Part shown: positions 12,542 to 35,374 of the stretch, piece by piece | Layout: each line of letters begins with the position of its first letter | Position numbering within the stretch: position 1 is the first letter of the stretch | Notes under the pieces: generated by a model | What the model was told of the DNA's origin: nothing | Databases searched by the model: none | Seen by the model: the letters and a program-made list of their open reading frames with translations, nothing else | Program-made: the position numbers and the translations under genes | Assembly (NCBI GenBank): GCA_003139615.1 | Contig: PLJH01000053.1 | Span: 1-35,420 of the forward strand | DNA length: 35,420 nucleotides | Reading direction: 5' to 3' | Origin: Alphaproteobacteria bacterium | Lineage (GTDB): Bacteria > Pseudomonadota > Alphaproteobacteria > Micropepsales > Micropepsaceae

Positions 12542-14392
12542 TCACGAACTTCGTACCGCCGCCGCGACATGACGCACGCGAGTCGCAGCTTTCGCAGGCA
12601 TAGCCGCCATCACCGCTTTCACGATTCCTTCCGCATCCAATCCGGCTTCGGCGTATTGGCGCGGTTGGTCGTCGTGGTCCTGCAGGCGGTCGGGGAGAGT
12701 GAGTGCGCGCACGGCTAATCCGCGATCCAAGAGTCCTGCGTTCGCCAGATAATGCAGCACCTGCGAGCCGAAGCCGCCGGCAGCACCTTCTTCGACCGTG
12801 ATCAGCGTGTGGTGGTTGCGAATCAGGTCGTTCACCAAATCGGTATCGATGGGCTTGGCAAAACGCGCATCGGCAACGGTGCAGGAAATGCCCTGTTCAT
12901 CGAGCAGGGACGCGGCTTCCAGCGCCGATGCGAGACGCGTCCCCAAACTCAGGATCGCGACGTCGGTGCCTTCGCGCATGATGCGCCCCTTGCCGATCTC
13001 GAGAAACTTCGTCTTTTCTGCGGACGCAAGGCGCGCCACTTCGCCGCGCGGATAGCGGAAGGCAATCGGGCCTTCGTCATACGCCGCCGCAGTCGCGACC
13101 ATCGCGATCAGATCGGCTTCATCGGCGGCCGCCATCACCACCATGCCGGGCAAGCAACCGAGATAGGCGAGATCGAAGCTGCCTGCATGCGTGCAACCAT
13201 CGGCACCCACGAGGCCCGCGCGATCCATCGCAAAACGCACCGGCAGTTTCTGGATCACCACGTCGTGGACGACCTGGTCGTAGGCGCGCTGCAGGAACGT
13301 CGAGTAGATCGTGCAGAACGGTTTGTAGCCTTCGGTCGCCATTCCGGCCGCAAACGTCACCGCGTGCTGTTCGGCGATGCCGACATCGAAGGTGCGATCG
13401 GGAAAGCGCTTCTCGAACAAATCTAGTCCGGTGCCGGACGGCATTGCCGCCGTGATCGCGACGATCTTCGGATCGATTTCCGCCTGGCGGATCAATTCCT
13501 GCGCAAACACGGTCGTATAGGTCGGCAGGCTGCTCTTCGACGCGGCCGATTTGCCGGTCGCGATATCGAATTTCCCGACCGCATGGCCCTTGTCGGAGGA
13601 ACCGGCAGCGGGCGCATAGCCGCGACCTTTTTCCGTCGCGATGTGCAGCAGGACTGGGCCGCCGTCTTCGTCGTCGCGGATTTTTTCGAGTGCGGAAATC
13701 AGACCGTCAACGTCGTGGCCGTCGATGGGACCCACATGGCGAAGCCCAAGCTGCGCGAAGATCGTGCCGGCATTCGACTTCTCCGCCGTCATGCGGTTGA
13801 GATGCTTGTTGAGCGCGCCGCAGGCGGGCGCGATGGACATGTTGTTGTCGTTGAGGATCACCAGAAACCGCGAATTGCGCGCGCCCGCATTGTTGATCGC
13901 TTCATAGGCCATGCCCGCGCTCATCGCGCCGTCGCCGATCACGGCGATGACATGATTGTTGCCGCCGGCCAGATCGCGCGCGACCGCCATGCCGAGGCCG
14001 GACGAAATCGAGGTGGAAGAATGCGCCGCGCCGAACGGGTCGTATTCGCTTTCCGCGCGCTTGGTGAACCCCGAAAGACCGCCGCCCTTGCGCACGCTGC
14101 GCATGCGATCGCGCCGGCCGGTCAGGATCTTGTGCGGATAGGCCTGGTGGCCGACATCCCAGATCACGCGATCGGCCGGCGTGTTGAAGACGTAATGCAA
14201 TGCGACGGTCAACTCGACCACGCCGAGGCCCGCGCCGAAATGGCCACCCGTGACGGAGACGATATTGATCAGCTCGTTGCGCAATTCCTCGGCGACCGCG
14301 CTCATCTGGCTCTTATCGAGCTTGCGCAAATCGGCCGGATCGCGGATCGCGTCCAGCAGCGGGAATTCAGCTTTCACCGATTGCAAGCTCAT
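12542..14392 (-). CDS. dxs: 1-deoxy-D-xylulose-5-phosphate synthase
   Basis: The protein is 616 residues, close to family length. The start at 14392 ([16 protein letters not shown]) follows TTTGGTGAG; upstream in-frame codons encode Arg-rich, non-homologous residues. Dxs hallmarks are present: [21 protein letters not shown] (His51), [25 protein letters not shown] (His124), the thiamine diphosphate motif starting GDGAMSAG at 153, [15 protein letters not shown] in the pyrimidine domain, and a transketolase C-terminal domain. It condenses pyruvate with glyceraldehyde-3-phosphate to give DXP, the first and often rate-limiting step of the MEP isoprenoid pathway. It lies 61 bp downstream of ispA on the same strand, a pairing common in bacteria, and so feeds the hopanoid genes next door. 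Confidence 0.97.
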
Positions 14393-14453
14393 GGACTCAC
14401 CAAACCTTTGCCGCCAAAACCTGTTTCGAATGCGAGCGGATTGAACATCGGTT

Positions 14454-15389
14454 TCACGATTCGCGCTTGAGAAGAAATATCGGCAATTCCTGGAGCTCGG
14501 CGGCGGCCTTTCCATAAGGCGCGACGGTGAGGGCGGCGCGGCGCGCCAGCGATTCGGCTTTTTCGCGCGCGGCCTGCACGCCCAGCAGGGACACGAGCGT
14601 GGCTTTGCCCTGGCTCTTGTCCTTGCCCGCGGTCTTGCCGATCTTTTCCGTCGTGCCCAGTTCGTCGAGCAGGTCGTCGGTGATCTGGAAGATGAGCCCG
14701 ATATCGCGGGCGTAGCTGCGCAGACGGTCTTCGTCTTTCGCGCCGGCCTGGCCGAGGATCGGTCCGGCCACGCAGCAGAATTCGAACAGCGCGCCGGTCT
14801 TCAACTGTTGCAACAAAATCACTTCCTCGGCGCCGAATGCGCCTGTGGGCGCCAGCATATCGATCATCTGACCGCCGATCATTCCGTCGCTGCCCGCGGC
14901 CGTCGCCAACTCCTGCACAAGCCGGCAGCGAACCTCCCCCGATTCGTGAGTCGCGGGCGCAGAGAGAATCCCGAAAGCGGATGTCAGAAGCGCATCACCC
15001 GTCAGCACGGCCGTCGCTTCGTCGAAGGCTTTGTGAGTCGTGGGCCTGCCGCGACGCAGATCGTCATCGTCCATGCAGGGGAGATCGTCATGCACCAACG
15101 AATAGGTATGCACGGCTTCGATCGCGGCCGCGGTGCGCGCAGCCCATTCCGGCTTCACGCCGAAGAGGCCGGCGCTCTGCAAGACAAGAAACGGCCGCAG
15201 ACGTTTGCCGCCTGCGAAAATCGCATAGCGCGTTGCTTCGTGAATGCGCGCATGTAACCCGCTTGGTTGCGGCAAAACGCGCTCGAGAACGGCTTCCGTG
15301 ATTTCCGCAGAACGTGACAATGCCGTAACGAAATTCGAGTTTTGTGCCTCGTCGGCTGAGACCGGTTGCTTTTGTTGGGTCGAATTCAT
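14454..15389 (-). CDS. ispA: farnesyl diphosphate synthase (short-chain prenyltransferase)
   Basis: The protein is 311 residues from the start at 15389; an alternative in-frame ATG is at 15416 and neither has a strong Shine-Dalgarno. The N-terminal 25 residues are Gln/Ser-rich and variable. Homology begins around [23 protein letters not shown]. The first aspartate-rich motif is D101-D102-LPCM-D107, the second is DDLLDE preceded by [28 protein letters not shown] and the bacterial two-residue insertion in the first motif are typical of IspA-type FPP synthases; geranylgeranyl specificity is not excluded. It makes C15 FPP from IPP and DMAPP, the substrate of HpnD. The usual upstream partner xseB is absent; ispH diverges instead. 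Confidence 0.93.
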
Positions 15390-30235: not shown

Positions 30236-30243
30236 GCCCGCAA

Positions 30244-30750
30244 TCAGTTCTTCACCTTAAACGCTTCCCCGATTTTCGAATGCCTCAGCCCCGGTGCCAG
30301 CTCGATCATTTCGATCATGTGGCCGTTGGGGTCGTAGGCGACGGCGCAGGCCATGATGCCGGCCTCGGGGATAGAGGTGGGTTCATCGGTGGTGAACTTC
30401 ACGCCCTTGGCTTTCAGCTACCGATGCGCCTCGCGCACATTCTCGGTGCGGAAGGCGATCACGCGCGGAATGGTCGTGGGCGAGGGCGTGGGGAAATGCG
30501 CTTTCGGTTCGACCCATTCAATGATGTCCATCATCGGGCCGTCCGGATCGCTGGGCAGCACCATCAACACGCCCTTGCCGACCGTGTCGGGAATCAGGGC
30601 GAAAGACTTTCCGCTGCCCTTGGGCCACACCGCATCGCGCCGGTCGCTGATGATCTGGAAGCCCAGCATCTCGTAGAACGCGACTGTCTCGTCCACATTC
30701 TTCGCGTTGACGATGGTGTGATAGAAATGTTTCAGACGCCATTCGGCCAT
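30244..30750 (-). pseudogene. VOC/glyoxalase-family gene interrupted by one amber codon
   Basis: The frame starts at ATG 30750 behind AGGGGGA. It encodes a lactoylglutathione-lyase-like protein: LKHFYHTIVNAKNVDETVAF, YEMLGFQIISDRRD, then MMDIIEWVEP. At 30418-30420 a TAG stops it after 110 residues (VREAHR-stop). The same frame continues without shift for 57 more residues (LKAKGVKFTTDEPTSIPEAG, then YDPNGHMIEMIELAP, ending FKVKN) to a TGA at 30244-30246. The second part carries the C-terminal GH-x-I-E-x2-E metal-ligand strand of the fold. One base change from CAG or AAG would give the TAG. The truncated 110-residue product would lack this strand and is probably inactive. A sequencing error or stop readthrough are alternatives. 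Confidence 0.85.
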
Positions 30751-30909: not shown

Positions 30910-32142
30910 ATGCATCTGATGTATTTCACCGAACAACCGATGTCGGCCTATCCGGTCGAGGAGGCCAAGCGCGGCGGCAACATCACCTCGCTGATGTTCT
31001 CCAACAAACATTACGATCCGGTCGCGGCCAGCCGTCTCTATAACGGCTATATCGATGACTATGTGCTCGCCGAAGAGTCGGGCTTCGACGGCATCATGCT
31101 GAACGAGCATCACAACGGCCCGTTCTGCATGCAGGCCAAAGCCAACATCATGGCATCGGTTCTCGCGGCAAAAACGAAGCGCGTCAAGATCGTGATCCTG
31201 GGCAATCCGCTGCCGCTCAGCGAGAATCCGGTGCGGCTCGCGGAAGAACTCGCGATGATCGATCTGATCTCGAAGGGACGGCTCGTGTCCGGCTTTGTGC
31301 GTGGCGCGGGTGTCGAGCAGCTCGCGACCAGCGTCAATCCCACCTACAACCGTGAGCGTTTCGAGGAAGCGCATGACCTGATCATCCGCACCTGGACGGA
31401 ACGCGGACCGTTTCGCTGGGAAGGCGCGCATTACCAGAATCGCGTGGTCAATCCGTGGGCGTTGCCGTTGCAGCAGCCGCATCCGCGTATCTGGATTCCG
31501 GGCGTGGTCTCGACGGAGACTGTGCTGTGGTCTGCCCGGCACCGCTATCCCTATATCGCGCTCAACACCACCATCGAGATGACGAAGAAGTTGTGGGACA
31601 CCTATGACAATGCCGCAGCCGACGCGGGCTACAAATCCGGCCCCGAGCAGCATGGCTATCTGTTGCGCTGCCACGTCGCCGAGACGGACGAGAAGGCGCT
31701 CGAAAACGCGCGCAATTTCATGTGGATGCAGGGCGAGTTTATCGGCGTCGGCCATCCCGTCTGGGCCAATCCGACGGGCTATTATTCTCCCTCCATGCGC
31801 AAGACCTTCGTGCAGATCGTGGCGGGGCGTATGCCGCCTTACGTTCCCAATTCCTATGAGACGCAGCTCGAAAATCTGGAAATCATCGCGGGCTCGCCGA
31901 AAACGGTGATCGCCAAGCTCCGCAAACTGATCAGCGAGACGCGCCCCGGCATCATGTCGTTCTGGGCCAATGACGGTTTCATCAGTCACGCCGACGCGCA
32001 AACCTGCATTCGCCTGCTGGGCCAGGAAGTGCTGCCTGCGGTGCGCGAAATGGGCAGGGAATTTGGGCTCAACTCGCCGTTCGATCTGAACACGCCCGTC
32101 AGCCTCGATTTCTCGACCGATCTCAAGAAGAAAGCTGGTTGA
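30910..32142 (+). CDS. luciferase-like (LLM class) flavin-dependent monooxygenase, copy 1
   Basis: The protein is 410 residues with a GAGAGGGAGA site before ATG 30910. It has the luciferase-like TIM-barrel pattern: MHLMYFTEQPMSAYP, ESGFDGIMLNEHHNGPF, VKIVILGNPLPLSENPVRLA, EELAMIDLISKGRLVSGFVR, and YNRERFEEAHDLIIRTW. A late HPRIWIPGVVSTET loop is at the C-terminal side of the barrel. Members use FMNH2 from a separate reductase and O2 to oxygenate ketones, alkanes, sulfonates or aldehydes. It is roughly three-quarters identical by eye to the protein at 34130. It leads a same-strand block with an SDR and an alpha/beta-hydrolase-fold protein. The substrate is unknown; the combination would suit oxidation of a cyclic or branched alcohol or ketone. 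Confidence 0.93.
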   Translation: MHLMYFTEQPMSAYPVEEAKRGGNITSLMFSNKHYDPVAASRLYNGYIDDYVLAEESGFDGIMLNEHHNGPFCMQAKANIMASVLAAKTKRVKIVILGNPLPLSENPVRLAEELAMIDLISKGRLVSGFVRGAGVEQLATSVNPTYNRERFEEAHDLIIRTWTERGPFRWEGAHYQNRVVNPWALPLQQPHPRIWIPGVVSTETVLWSARHRYPYIALNTTIEMTKKLWDTYDNAAADAGYKSGPEQHGYLLRCHVAETDEKALENARNFMWMQGEFIGVGHPVWANPTGYYSPSMRKTFVQIVAGRMPPYVPNSYETQLENLEIIAGSPKTVIAKLRKLISETRPGIMSFWANDGFISHADAQTCIRLLGQEVLPAVREMGREFGLNSPFDLNTPVSLDFSTDLKKKAG

Positions 32143-32156
32143 TGCGTTCCGGGTTG

Positions 32157-32380
32157 TCGAAAAAGGAAGATTTAACGCAGAGGGCGCGGAGGGTGCGCAG
32201 AGGACGCGGGGGAAAGCGAGTTGACCGTGCGTCCAATTCGACTACTTTCATTTCCTGCTGCGCGCGTACCGCGCGCAAGAAGTATTTTCGAACGTTAGCG
32301 TCTTTCGAACAAATGCGCGCAGTTCTCCTCTGCGTCCCCCGCGCATCCGCCGCGCCCTCTGCGTTAAAATCTTTTTCAAC
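32157..32380. repeat. long imperfect inverted repeat with internal palindrome
   Basis: The left arm (about 32157-32213) contains TTAACGCAGAGGGCGCGG and GCAGAGGACGCGGGGG. The right arm (about 32326-32379) contains the reverse complement CCGCGCCCTCTGCGTTAA. The arms are imperfectly complementary over about 50 bp. Between them lies TGCGCGC, GTACC, GCGCGCA (32259-32277). The word TTAACGCAGAGG-CGC-GG is a familiar theme of dispersed intergenic repeats in several bacterial groups. It fills the LLM1-SDR gap and could reduce readthrough or stabilise the upstream mRNA. Confidence 0.75.
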
Positions 32381-32404
32381 GCCTTAGCAATCGGAAAACC
32401 AGAT

Positions 32405-33202
32405 ATGGGACGCGTTCAGGACAGAGTCGCCATCGTCACTGGTTCGGCGAAGGGTATGGGTGCGGCCATCATGCGCATTCTTGCGCGTGAGGGTGCGCAT
32501 GTGATCGGCGGTGATGTGGATGAAAAGCTCGGAGAAGAAATTGCCGCCGGCATCCGTGCCAAAGGCGGCGATGCCGTATTCCTGCGCCACGACGTGTCCG
32601 ACGAAGCAAGCTGGCAGCGTATTGTGCAACTTGCGGAGGATCGCTTCGGCGGACTGCACATTCTCGTCAACAATGCAGGCGTGCTGCCGCAACAAAGCGT
32701 GATCGACGAACTCCCGCTCGCGCAATGGCGGCACACTTTAGGCGTCGATCTCGACGGCGTGTTTCTCGGCTGCAAGCATGGCGTGCGCGCGATGAAGAAG
32801 GTCACGGCCAAGGGCGGCCCCGATTGTGCCATCGTGAACATCTCTTCGGCGCTCGGTCTCGTCGGCGCCTCGCATTGCGCGGACTATGTTGCGGCAAAAG
32901 GCGGCGTACGTCTCCTTACCAAGGCGGTCGCGCTCGAATGCGCGGAAGGCAAGCACCGCATCCGGGTCAACTCGATTCATCCGGGCGCCATAGATACGCC
33001 GATGATTCGCGGCCATGTCGCGGACGGGCACAGGCTCGGCACTTCGAATGAAATGATCGACTTGATGATCAAGACGCATCCGATCGGGCGCCTGGGCGAA
33101 CCGTCGGATATCGGCAATGCGGTGCTCTTTCTTGCGTCGGATGAAGCGGGTTTTATCACGGGCTCCGAGCTTGCGGTGGATGGTGGCCTGACGGCTCAAT
33201 GA
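32405..33202 (+). CDS. short-chain dehydrogenase/reductase
   Basis: The protein is 265 residues, a classical SDR. The cofactor motif is VAIVTGSAKGMGAAI (about 9-23) with TGxxxGxG, and an Asp at about residue 38 (GGDVDEK) favours NAD. The NNAG is in LHILVNNAGVLP. Catalytic residues are Ser in VNISSALGLVG, and Tyr and Lys in DYVAAKGG. The C-terminal SDEAGFITGSELAVDGGLTA is standard. The family oxidises secondary alcohols or reduces ketones. It sits between the two luciferase-like genes and so could supply the ketone they oxygenate. There is only a weak ribosome-binding site (CGGAA). A long repeat separates it from LLM1, so independent initiation is possible. Confidence 0.93.
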   Translation: MGRVQDRVAIVTGSAKGMGAAIMRILAREGAHVIGGDVDEKLGEEIAAGIRAKGGDAVFLRHDVSDEASWQRIVQLAEDRFGGLHILVNNAGVLPQQSVIDELPLAQWRHTLGVDLDGVFLGCKHGVRAMKKVTAKGGPDCAIVNISSALGLVGASHCADYVAAKGGVRLLTKAVALECAEGKHRIRVNSIHPGAIDTPMIRGHVADGHRLGTSNEMIDLMIKTHPIGRLGEPSDIGNAVLFLASDEAGFITGSELAVDGGLTAQ

Positions 33203-33337
33203 AAGGCCGGTAACGCTGCCGAACAGTTCTCCGTCCGCGCGTCCCGCGAGGTGGCCTTCGCGTCCGCTTAAGCCCGAGGCCCGCTTGCGTGGAAGCTTAA
33301 AAAAAACGAGTGTTCTAAAAAGCAACGAGGGATAAAA

Positions 33338-34114
33338 ATGGTTGCCTGGAGCGAGAGCACGGTCACGGTTGCCGGCGGCAAGGTTCACGTCGTCCGCGGC
33401 GGTAAGGGCGCGCCGCTGGTGTTGCTGCATCACGACATCGGCACGCTGGACCAGCTCGATTTCTACGACCGGTTGGCCCAGCGCTTCGAGATCATCCTTC
33501 CGCATCATCCGGGCTGGGGAAAATCCGGGCGGCCGCAATGGATGCGCAGCGTGCGCGATGTGGCCGTCATCCATCAGGAGCTGCTCGCGGAATTGAAGAT
33601 CAGCGGGCATTCGTTGCTTGGTCTTGGTTTCGGCGGCTGGATCGCAGCCGAAATGGCGACGATGGCGCCGCGCGATATCAAGAAGCTTGTCGTAGTGGGC
33701 GCGATGGGCATCAAGCCACCCGAAGGCTTCATCGCCGACCAGGCGCTCCTCAGCTACATCGCTTATGTAAAGACCGGCCTGCACGACAAATCCGTCTTCG
33801 AGAAAACCTGGGGCGCTGAGCCCGAGCTCGATGTGCTCGAGCAATGGGACATCCATCGCGAGATGTGTTTCCGCATCGCGTGGAAGCCTTACATGTACAG
33901 CCAGACCTTGCCGCATCTGTTGAAGAACGTGCATGCGCCCGCGCTGGTGGTGACGGGTGACGATGACGGCATCGTGCCGAAGAGCGCTGCCGAGGTTTAT
34001 GCGAAGTCGCTGCCGCACGCGACCCTGAGCGTCGTCAGGGACAGCGGCCATTTCGTCGAGCTCGAGAAACCTGCCGAGCTGGCCAAGCTCGTCACATCCT
34101 TCATCGCCGGCTGA
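33338..34114 (+). CDS. alpha/beta-hydrolase-fold protein lacking the nucleophile serine
   Basis: The protein is 258 residues with a GAGGG site before ATG 33338. The fold is clear: the strand-turn PLVLLHHDIGTLDQL, the HHPGWGKSGRP loop, the nucleophile-elbow position, LVVTGDDDGIVPKSAAEVYA (acid Asp), and VVRDSGHFVELEKPAEL (base His). At the elbow, where GHSFGGW is usual, it reads G95-L-G97-F-G99-G-W, so the catalytic Ser is Gly. S92, five residues earlier in GHSLLG, is not at the elbow position by length. The acid and base residues are retained. It could have a non-hydrolytic or ligand-binding role, or use another residue. It lies 15 bp upstream of LLM2, almost certainly cotranslated with it. 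Confidence 0.88.
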   Translation: MVAWSESTVTVAGGKVHVVRGGKGAPLVLLHHDIGTLDQLDFYDRLAQRFEIILPHHPGWGKSGRPQWMRSVRDVAVIHQELLAELKISGHSLLGLGFGGWIAAEMATMAPRDIKKLVVVGAMGIKPPEGFIADQALLSYIAYVKTGLHDKSVFEKTWGAEPELDVLEQWDIHREMCFRIAWKPYMYSQTLPHLLKNVHAPALVVTGDDDGIVPKSAAEVYAKSLPHATLSVVRDSGHFVELEKPAELAKLVTSFIAG

Positions 34115-34129
34115 CCGGAGAAATTCGCC

Positions 34130-35374
34130 ATGCACATCATGTATTTCACCGAACAGCCAATGTCGTCCTATCCGGAGCAGGAGGGCCGCAATTTCCGCTC
34201 GACCGCGCTCATGTTCCCCAACAAGCATTTCGACGAGAAGGCCGCGAGCCGGCTCTACAACCAATATATCGAGCAATATGTGCTGGCCGAGGAAATGGGC
34301 TTCGACGGCATCATGCTGAACGAGCATCACAATGCGCCGTTCTGCATGCAGGCCAAGACGAACATCATGGCGTCTGTCCTCGCCGCCGTCACCAAGCGCG
34401 TGAAGATCGTGCTGCTGGGCAATCCGTTGCCGCTCTCTGAAAACCCGATCAGGCTCGCCGAAGAACTCGCGATGATCGATCTGATCTCGAAGGGGCGTCT
34501 CGTCTCCGGTTTCGTGCGCGGCGGCGGCACCGAGCAGCTCGCCTCGGGCGTGAACCCCGCCTACAACCGCGAACGCTTCGAAGAGGCACATGATCTCATC
34601 GTGCGCACCTGGACGGAGCGCGGGCCGTTCCGCTGGGAAGGCGATCACTACCAGAACCGCGTGGTGAACCCGTGGGCACTCCCGTTGCAGCAGCCGCATC
34701 CGCGCATCTGGATCCCGGGCGTGCTTTCGACCGAGACAATCAAATTCGCGGCGCGCCATCGCTATCCCTATGTTGCGCTCAACACGTCTGCCGAGCAGTC
34801 GCGCAAGGTTTGGGACACGTATGACCAGGTCGCGGCCGAAGTGGGCTATCAATCCGGCCCGCAGCAGCGCGGCTATCTGCTCCGCTGCCATGTGGCCGAG
34901 ACGGAAGAGAAGGCGTTGGAGAATGCGCGCCAGTTCATGTGGATGGCGGGCGAATTCACCGGCGTGGCGCATCCCGTGTGGGGCAATCCGGCGGGATATT
35001 ATTCCGCGTCGCAGCGCCAGATGTTCGTGAAGATGGTGGCGGGCCGGCCCGAGTCCGCATGGGCCACGGGTTACGCCGCACCGTTCGAGCAGCAAGTGGC
35101 CGAACTCGGCATCGTCTGCGGCACGTCCAAGACCGTGATCGAGAAGCTCAAGATCGTGCTCGAGAACATGCAGACCGGCATCCTCGCGCTGTGGGCGAAT
35201 GACGGCAAGGTGAGCGAAGCGGATTCGAAAACCTGCATCCGCCTCATGGGCCAGGAAGTTGTGCCCGCGATCCGCGAATATGGCGACAGAATTGGCCTCA
35301 AGAGCCCGTTCGATCTCGATACGCCGGTGAGCACGAAATTCTCGAAGGATCTGAAACCGCGGGTTGCAGCGTAG
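34130..35374 (+). CDS. luciferase-like (LLM class) flavin-dependent monooxygenase, copy 2
   Basis: The protein is 414 residues with GGAG nine bases before the ATG. It aligns end to end with LLM1: MHIMYFTEQPMSSYP, EMGFDGIMLNEHHNAPF, KIVLLGNPLPLSENPIRLAE, ELAMIDLISKGRLVSGFVRG, and HPRIWIPGVLSTET are nearly the same. Differences concentrate at residues 15-28, around 208-235 (KFAARHRYPYVALNTSAEQS against LWSARHRYPYIALNTTIEMT), and 300-320. These include segments likely to line the substrate pocket, which suggests the two have diverged in substrate. Gene duplication followed by specialisation is the simplest reading, although a two-protein enzyme is possible. No flavin reductase gene is in the window. 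The window ends 46 bp after the stop, so the operon may continue. Confidence 0.93.
   Translation: MHIMYFTEQPMSSYPEQEGRNFRSTALMFPNKHFDEKAASRLYNQYIEQYVLAEEMGFDGIMLNEHHNAPFCMQAKTNIMASVLAAVTKRVKIVLLGNPLPLSENPIRLAEELAMIDLISKGRLVSGFVRGGGTEQLASGVNPAYNRERFEEAHDLIVRTWTERGPFRWEGDHYQNRVVNPWALPLQQPHPRIWIPGVLSTETIKFAARHRYPYVALNTSAEQSRKVWDTYDQVAAEVGYQSGPQQRGYLLRCHVAETEEKALENARQFMWMAGEFTGVAHPVWGNPAGYYSASQRQMFVKMVAGRPESAWATGYAAPFEQQVAELGIVCGTSKTVIEKLKIVLENMQTGILALWANDGKVSEADSKTCIRLMGQEVVPAIREYGDRIGLKSPFDLDTPVSTKFSKDLKPRVAA

Follow-up and report, generated by a model that had tools for sequence, protein, structure and literature searches.

Do four genes that follow one another on a single strand form one pathway, or is the conserved unit a smaller one? 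The window analysed here is the entire 35420-base contig PLJH01000053.1, one of 142 contigs in a 4.65 Mb draft genome of the alphaproteobacterial family Micropepsaceae (GCA_003139615.1). At positions 30910–35374 it carries, in this order, a luciferase-like monooxygenase (LLM1), a short-chain dehydrogenase/reductase (SDR), an alpha/beta-hydrolase-fold protein (ABH) and a second luciferase-like monooxygenase (LLM2; Table 1). An earlier note on this DNA had described these four same-strand genes as a single degradation cassette. The genes themselves are borne out by open reading frames and Pfam matches (PF00296 at 131.5 and 160.7 bits for the two LLMs, with a cut-off of 27.9; PF00561 at 63.1 bits for ABH). 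The cassette is not: we hold with high confidence that the conserved unit consists of two genes, ABH and then LLM.

A profile of LLM1 and LLM2 retrieved 439 relatives in named genomes, and the best 80 of these 439 loci were compared, with flanking DNA of up to 10 kb per side that contig ends shorten in some cases. An ABH relative sits immediately upstream of the LLM, on the same strand, in 79 of the 80 loci (L106 is the exception), and the hosts span Alphaproteobacteria, Rokubacteriota, Binatota and Myxococcota. From the ABH stop to the LLM start the median distance is 14 nucleotides, calculated over 87 forward-strand pairs from named and unnamed loci, some genomes entering twice; the single value of −824 comes from the frame-broken ABH of one locus (L067). 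The window's own spacing is likewise tight only between ABH and LLM2 (15 bases), with 262 bases between LLM1 and SDR and 135 between SDR and ABH. By contrast, within the flanking DNA examined the order LLM–SDR–ABH–LLM recurs in none of the 80 named loci, nor does any of them have another close LLM (at least 60% identical). In 13 of the 80 there are SDR matches of more than 70 bits, at 27–44% identity and in varying places and on varying strands. With no repeat of the order in 80 loci, the four-gene module is rejected; among the loci examined, the arrangement that the earlier note proposed to look for elsewhere is present only in the window's genome. What survives of the proposed membership is that the alpha/beta-fold protein and an LLM belong together, the SDR and the second LLM not being conserved. 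The pair is rare in the taxonomic order to which the window's genome belongs: of 96 genomes, only 2 gave an ABH relative at E <= 1e-40, namely the window's own and one with a 37% identical protein of the Ser type described below. Plasmid carriage was considered and discarded, the only records at E <= 1e-60 being four from Neorhizobium at about 35% identity.

The ABH itself departs from its fold family at the nucleophile elbow, where hydrolases have G-x-S-x-G and the window's protein has GLGFGG. A comparison of 92 distinct ABHs linked to LLMs, from which identical duplicates, short sequences and L067 had been removed, finds Gly at the elbow in 83, Ser in 6 and Cys in 3. Within the clade it is Gly in 83 of 83 distinct sequences, the window's included, and this Gly group has a single origin (support 98/98). 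Its members keep the catalytic Asp (81 of 83, with Asn in two) and the catalytic His (82 of 83, with Ala in one), so that the fold, Asp and His of a serine hydrolase are in place and a Ser, Cys or Asp nucleophile is absent. The nearest other ABH group in a midpoint-rooted tree is of the Ser type (GFSLGG or GFSFGG) and also lies beside LLMs, which are 42–49% identical to LLM2; the Cys type belongs to a more distant kind of pair than the Ser group. Glu175, which every member of the Gly group has and at most 2 of the 9 other ABHs share, is therefore a candidate for a compensating residue. An AlphaFold2 model of ABH (predicted local distance difference test score 95.7, predicted template modelling score (pTM) 0.94) has as its closest folds lipases and esterases, tied with the meta-cleavage C–C hydrolases CarC, HsaD and BphD at Z ~30 (up to 30.6). 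Against the HsaD model NF045632, ABH scores 59.6 bits, far from the cut-off of 400. The replacement of the nucleophile is a plain observation across the clade, and from it we infer that ABH has very probably ceased to be a serine hydrolase. Opening of a lactone by serine hydrolysis is unlikely because the catalytic serine is glycine clade-wide, and the role once assigned to ABH, a hydrolase-fold partner that processes a lactone or ester, loses its footing. Mutants of C–C hydrolases indicate that this hydrolase type can retain an acid–base half-reaction without its serine.

Several lines of evidence point to a link between the LLM and the unusual deazaflavin cofactor F420. First, in a class sample of 385 genomes, the F420 biosynthesis protein CofE (detected as PF01996) is present in 9 of the 11 genomes with the ABH–LLM clade and in 61 of the 374 without it (Fisher 5.6e-6); these co-occurrence counts, and those given below, ignore kinship, no correction for phylogeny being applied. 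Second, a tblastn scan with one representative each, every representative passing its own curated cut-off, placed CofC, CofD, CofE, FbiC or FGD inside the locus itself in 14 of the 80 named loci. Third, 66 of the named loci have no cof gene within the locus; the genomes behind 50 of these were tested for CofE, and 48 have it elsewhere in the genome. On balance we consider a tie of the LLM to F420 somewhat more likely than not, which is short of making F420 its proven cofactor.

We arrive, tentatively and with slightly less than even confidence, at a two-gene operon for an F420-associated LLM oxidoreductase and a non-hydrolytic ABH partner. The LLM, a TIM-barrel oxidoreductase, would pass electrons to or from a small organic compound, and the co-occurrence suggests F420 as its cofactor or pathway in most hosts. 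ABH, with Gly instead of Ser at the elbow, would not act as a serine hydrolase; its His–Asp pair and pocket could carry out a non-covalent acid–base step on the substrate or product of the LLM. Candidate steps would be tautomerisation and C–C or C–X elimination; alternatively, ABH might bind the substrate and hand it over. The acid–base role is possible rather than probable. In the window's lineage the LLM was duplicated, LLM1 now lying upstream beside an unrelated SDR, and the tree shows fast divergence of both copies; the copies in this genome may have shifted to flavin mononucleotide (FMN) or another use, or the draft may miss F420 genes. An extended version, which we regard as improbable, would make the pair a widely shared F420-linked system of Alphaproteobacteria, Rokubacteria and Binatota. 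Its permanently nucleophile-less ABH would be an acid–base catalyst or obligate subunit, its LLM would use or modify F420, and the window would show the pair after it had escaped into a host devoid of F420, its LLMs duplicated and changing fast.

A number of observations weigh against the F420-associated reading. Loci with direct cof linkage all fall in a single clade of the LLM tree (23 rows), and this linkage may have a single origin. The FMN-type LLM family TIGR03860, used as a control (presence taken as E <= 1e-100), occurs in 61 of the 385 genomes, and CofE is found in 29 of these 61 compared with 41 of the 324 others, so that LLM-rich genomes tend to have F420 genes anyway. Four clade genomes are negative for CofE, two from the set of 50 named genomes (G862 and G867) and two from the class sample (G406 and the window's own, G000). 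In a search with positive controls, FbiC was found in G862 and G406, a point in favour of the F420 link, and neither CofE nor FbiC was found in G867 or in the window's genome, a 96.67% complete draft. The window's LLMs also fall below all NCBIfam cut-offs of F420 families, LLM2 by a wide margin, the best being TIGR03619 (67.6 bits for LLM2 and 61.7 for LLM1, with 166.9 required). The LLM clade keeps the motif EHH together with Arg130, Ser200 and Thr203 (R130 and S200 invariant and T203 nearly so among 42 sequences). In an alignment to 1brl_A these last three residues match luciferase Arg107, Ser176 and Thr179, which we take to have a role at the FMN phosphate. When 16 clade rows were set against 28 F420-type neighbour LLMs (8 FGD, 8 Rv2161c-type, 8 CPS_4043-type and 4 MSMEG_2256-type), the Arg position of the latter coincided with a glycine-rich motif, GxGxG or GLGTQ, and they did not retain the Ser/Thr pair. 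The nearest solved relatives are FMN enzymes: 7bip (RslO1), luciferases and 4uwm (3,6-diketocamphane monooxygenase, E 5e-12). Finally, a physical ABH–LLM complex was considered and gained no support, the AlphaFold2 model of a fused read-through reaching a pTM of 0.60 with no inter-domain support.

The luciferase-type cofactor site means that FMN use stays possible for the LLM, and the same site, the nearest solved chains, the TIGR03860 control and the lack of CofE and FbiC in the window's genome all fit the strongest alternative. This holds that the LLM is an FMN-dependent monooxygenase in the style of luciferase, RslO1 or the type II Baeyer–Villiger enzymes, with its reductase encoded elsewhere, that F420 co-occurrence reflects LLM-rich soil bacteria, and that ABH is a binding or acid–base partner. 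We consider this alternative serious but unlikely. The tie of the clade to F420 is stronger than that of TIGR03860, for of the TIGR03860-positive genomes, 9 have the clade and 8 of these carry CofE, compared with 21 of the 52 that lack the clade (p = 0.0085), and there is no flavin reductase among ten classified neighbour proteins, although no search aimed at reductases was made. The Baeyer–Villiger likeness drawn in the earlier note holds to the extent that a diketocamphane monooxygenase is among the nearest solved relatives, while the F420 co-occurrence points away from a simple FMN Baeyer–Villiger route.

The missing F420 genes of the window's genome were also considered as proof of absence, and rejected as such. 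CofE is carried by 3 of 69 genomes of the window's genus; in these carriers CofC, CofD and CofE are clustered, with FbiC nearby in 2 of the 3. This weakens the case for a true absence, and with such clustering in a 96.67% complete draft, one lost contig may explain it. The same gap bears on a further alternative, in which the pair modifies or degrades F420 or its precursor FO as an FMN-dependent enzyme. That would reconcile the luciferase-type site with the F420 co-occurrence, and there is a weak profile match to the riboflavin lyase RcaE, itself an LLM (5w48, E 0.0023). We judge it very unlikely, no F420 pathway gene having been found in the window's genome in searches for CofE and FbiC.

LLM1 and LLM2 are 72% identical and are sisters (support 99/95) in a tree of 81 distinct LLMs. 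Their end branches, 0.40 and 0.41, compare with a tree median of 0.045, and out of 168 near-invariant columns each copy deviates from the relatives at 9, the highest number among the 81 rows. Their non-synonymous divergence (dN) of 0.217 compared with a synonymous divergence (dS) of 0.814, both by NG86, indicates that both copies look selected to stay intact. It had been claimed that the two differ mostly at pocket segments; pocket-specific divergence is not borne out, the differences following the ordinary variability of the family along the chain. A duplicated pair with both members diverging fast would fit a LuxA/LuxB-like heterodimer with divided labour, but both copies retain EHH, R and S..T at the site and the double LLM has no parallel within the flanking DNA examined in the 80 relatives, and we give this arrangement little credence. 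Weakest of all, and hardly credible, is the pathway first suggested for the locus, in which the LLMs would put oxygen into a ketone made by the SDR and ABH would hydrolyse the lactone: the folds fit, but ABH lacks the nucleophile, neither the SDR nor the double LLM is conserved, and the four-gene order was seen in none of the 80 loci.

The contig appears to belong to this genome. Of the 68 other genomes of the genus, 59 have an IspH that is 67–81% (mostly 73–81%) identical to the one on the window's contig; 7 have only a second type (51–56%), and 2 gave no match. This second type is also present in the window's genome, on another contig (C32, 53%). The identity to genus copies makes contamination by a foreign contig unlikely. 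The contig stops 46 bases past the end of LLM2, and it is possible that the contig end is chimeric.

Table 1. Features at the right-hand end of the window
Feature	Position	Strand	Details
LLM1, luciferase-like oxidoreductase, sister copy of LLM2	30910..32142	+	410 aa, PF00296 (Bac_luciferase)
Inverted repeat, imperfect, in the LLM1–SDR gap	32171..32368	.	arms 32171-32213 and 32326-32368, 43 nt, 86% complementary
SDR-family dehydrogenase, outside the conserved pair	32405..33202	+	265 aa, PF13561/PF00106 (adh_short_C2)
ABH, alpha/beta-hydrolase-fold protein, elbow GLGFGG with Gly97 in the nucleophile position, Asp210 and His238 retained	33338..34114	+	258 aa, PF00561 (Abhydrolase_1)
LLM2, luciferase-like TIM-barrel oxidoreductase, partner of ABH	34130..35374	+	414 aa, PF00296 (Bac_luciferase)

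Some features lie around or apart from the pair. The inverted repeat between LLM1 and SDR is possibly a mobile repeat or a terminator; a 13-base pattern of its arm occurs within the window only at the two arms. Divergent from LLM1, at 30238–30750 on the minus strand, is a VOC/glyoxalase-like frame (assigned to the family by eye, with no Pfam match for the piece scanned) that contains an in-frame stop and is either a pseudogene or the product of a sequencing error. As a partner gene it was rejected, pieces of it matching in 1 of the 80 loci (L111). In three loci a second ABH–LLM pair with Cys at the ABH elbow (GACFGG or GSCFGG) lies downstream of the main pair, close behind it in L033 (11379–13329) and L034 (11246–13219) and 1.3 kb behind in L047 (8164–10119). 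The window's genome has, on another contig, a distant LLM–ABH pair (~31% and 26%) in reversed order and with a Ser-type elbow (L012, G000 C41, ~12816–14822), and elsewhere an open frame that fuses about 112 SDR-matching residues to an LLM (L138, 7077–9107, G000 C96). Small proteins with a similar start sequence, by eye presumably SnoaL/NTF2-like, follow the LLM in three Binatota-like loci (L097, L104 and L110). The contig of L104, whose pair clusters with Binatota, is probably misnamed in its title, Klebsiella pneumoniae (metagenome-assembled genome).

Literature searches limited to open-licence papers returned no paper describing the ABH–LLM pair, and it is not described in the available parts of PMC8498797, PMC8093152, PMC11878206 and PMC13101518. 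What F420 does in proteobacteria is for the most part still to be assigned: a 2021 review states that experiments had yet to address any F420-dependent reductase or F420-reducing dehydrogenase from bacteria other than actinobacteria (PMC8498797). The ABH–LLM pair, being small, conserved and associated with F420 genes in several phyla, lends itself to direct testing. The fixed absence of the nucleophile in several phyla, next to an otherwise retained active site, suggests that a widespread enzyme fold here performs a reaction other than the hydrolysis of esters.

Compared with known systems, the LLM is closest to RslO1 of rishirilide biosynthesis, which is the nearest solved LLM (E 1.1e-21 with a single sequence, 4.6e-26 with the profile), ranks first among the Foldseek matches of the fused model and carries Arg and Thr/Ser where the cofactor-site residues align. 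The differences are an identity of only about 20% to the window's LLM and a partner of another kind: the part of PMC8093152 available proposes that RslO1 acts with the flavin reductase RslO2 in an epoxidation, and makes no mention of an ABH. With the F420-dependent hydride transferases (FGD, TIGR03619 and others) the LLM shares its superfamily, its neighbourhood in some loci and, in most hosts tested though not in the window's, the co-occurrence with F420 genes, but the window's LLMs score below all cut-offs and have another cofactor-site motif. ABH resembles the meta-cleavage-product C–C hydrolases HsaD, BphD, CarC and MhpC in fold (Z 29–30 over ~250 residues) and in its His and Asp, and differs from them in lacking the Ser nucleophile and in lying far under the HsaD cut-off. 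It also recalls alpha/beta-hydrolase Cluster 64, by the description in the portion of PMC11878206 available a function-unassigned family in which the serine is replaced and which lies near LLM genes in Streptomyces; there the change is from Ser to Asp (candidate epoxide hydrolases), whereas in ABH it is to Gly. We read the ABH–LLM pair as a variant of known folds.

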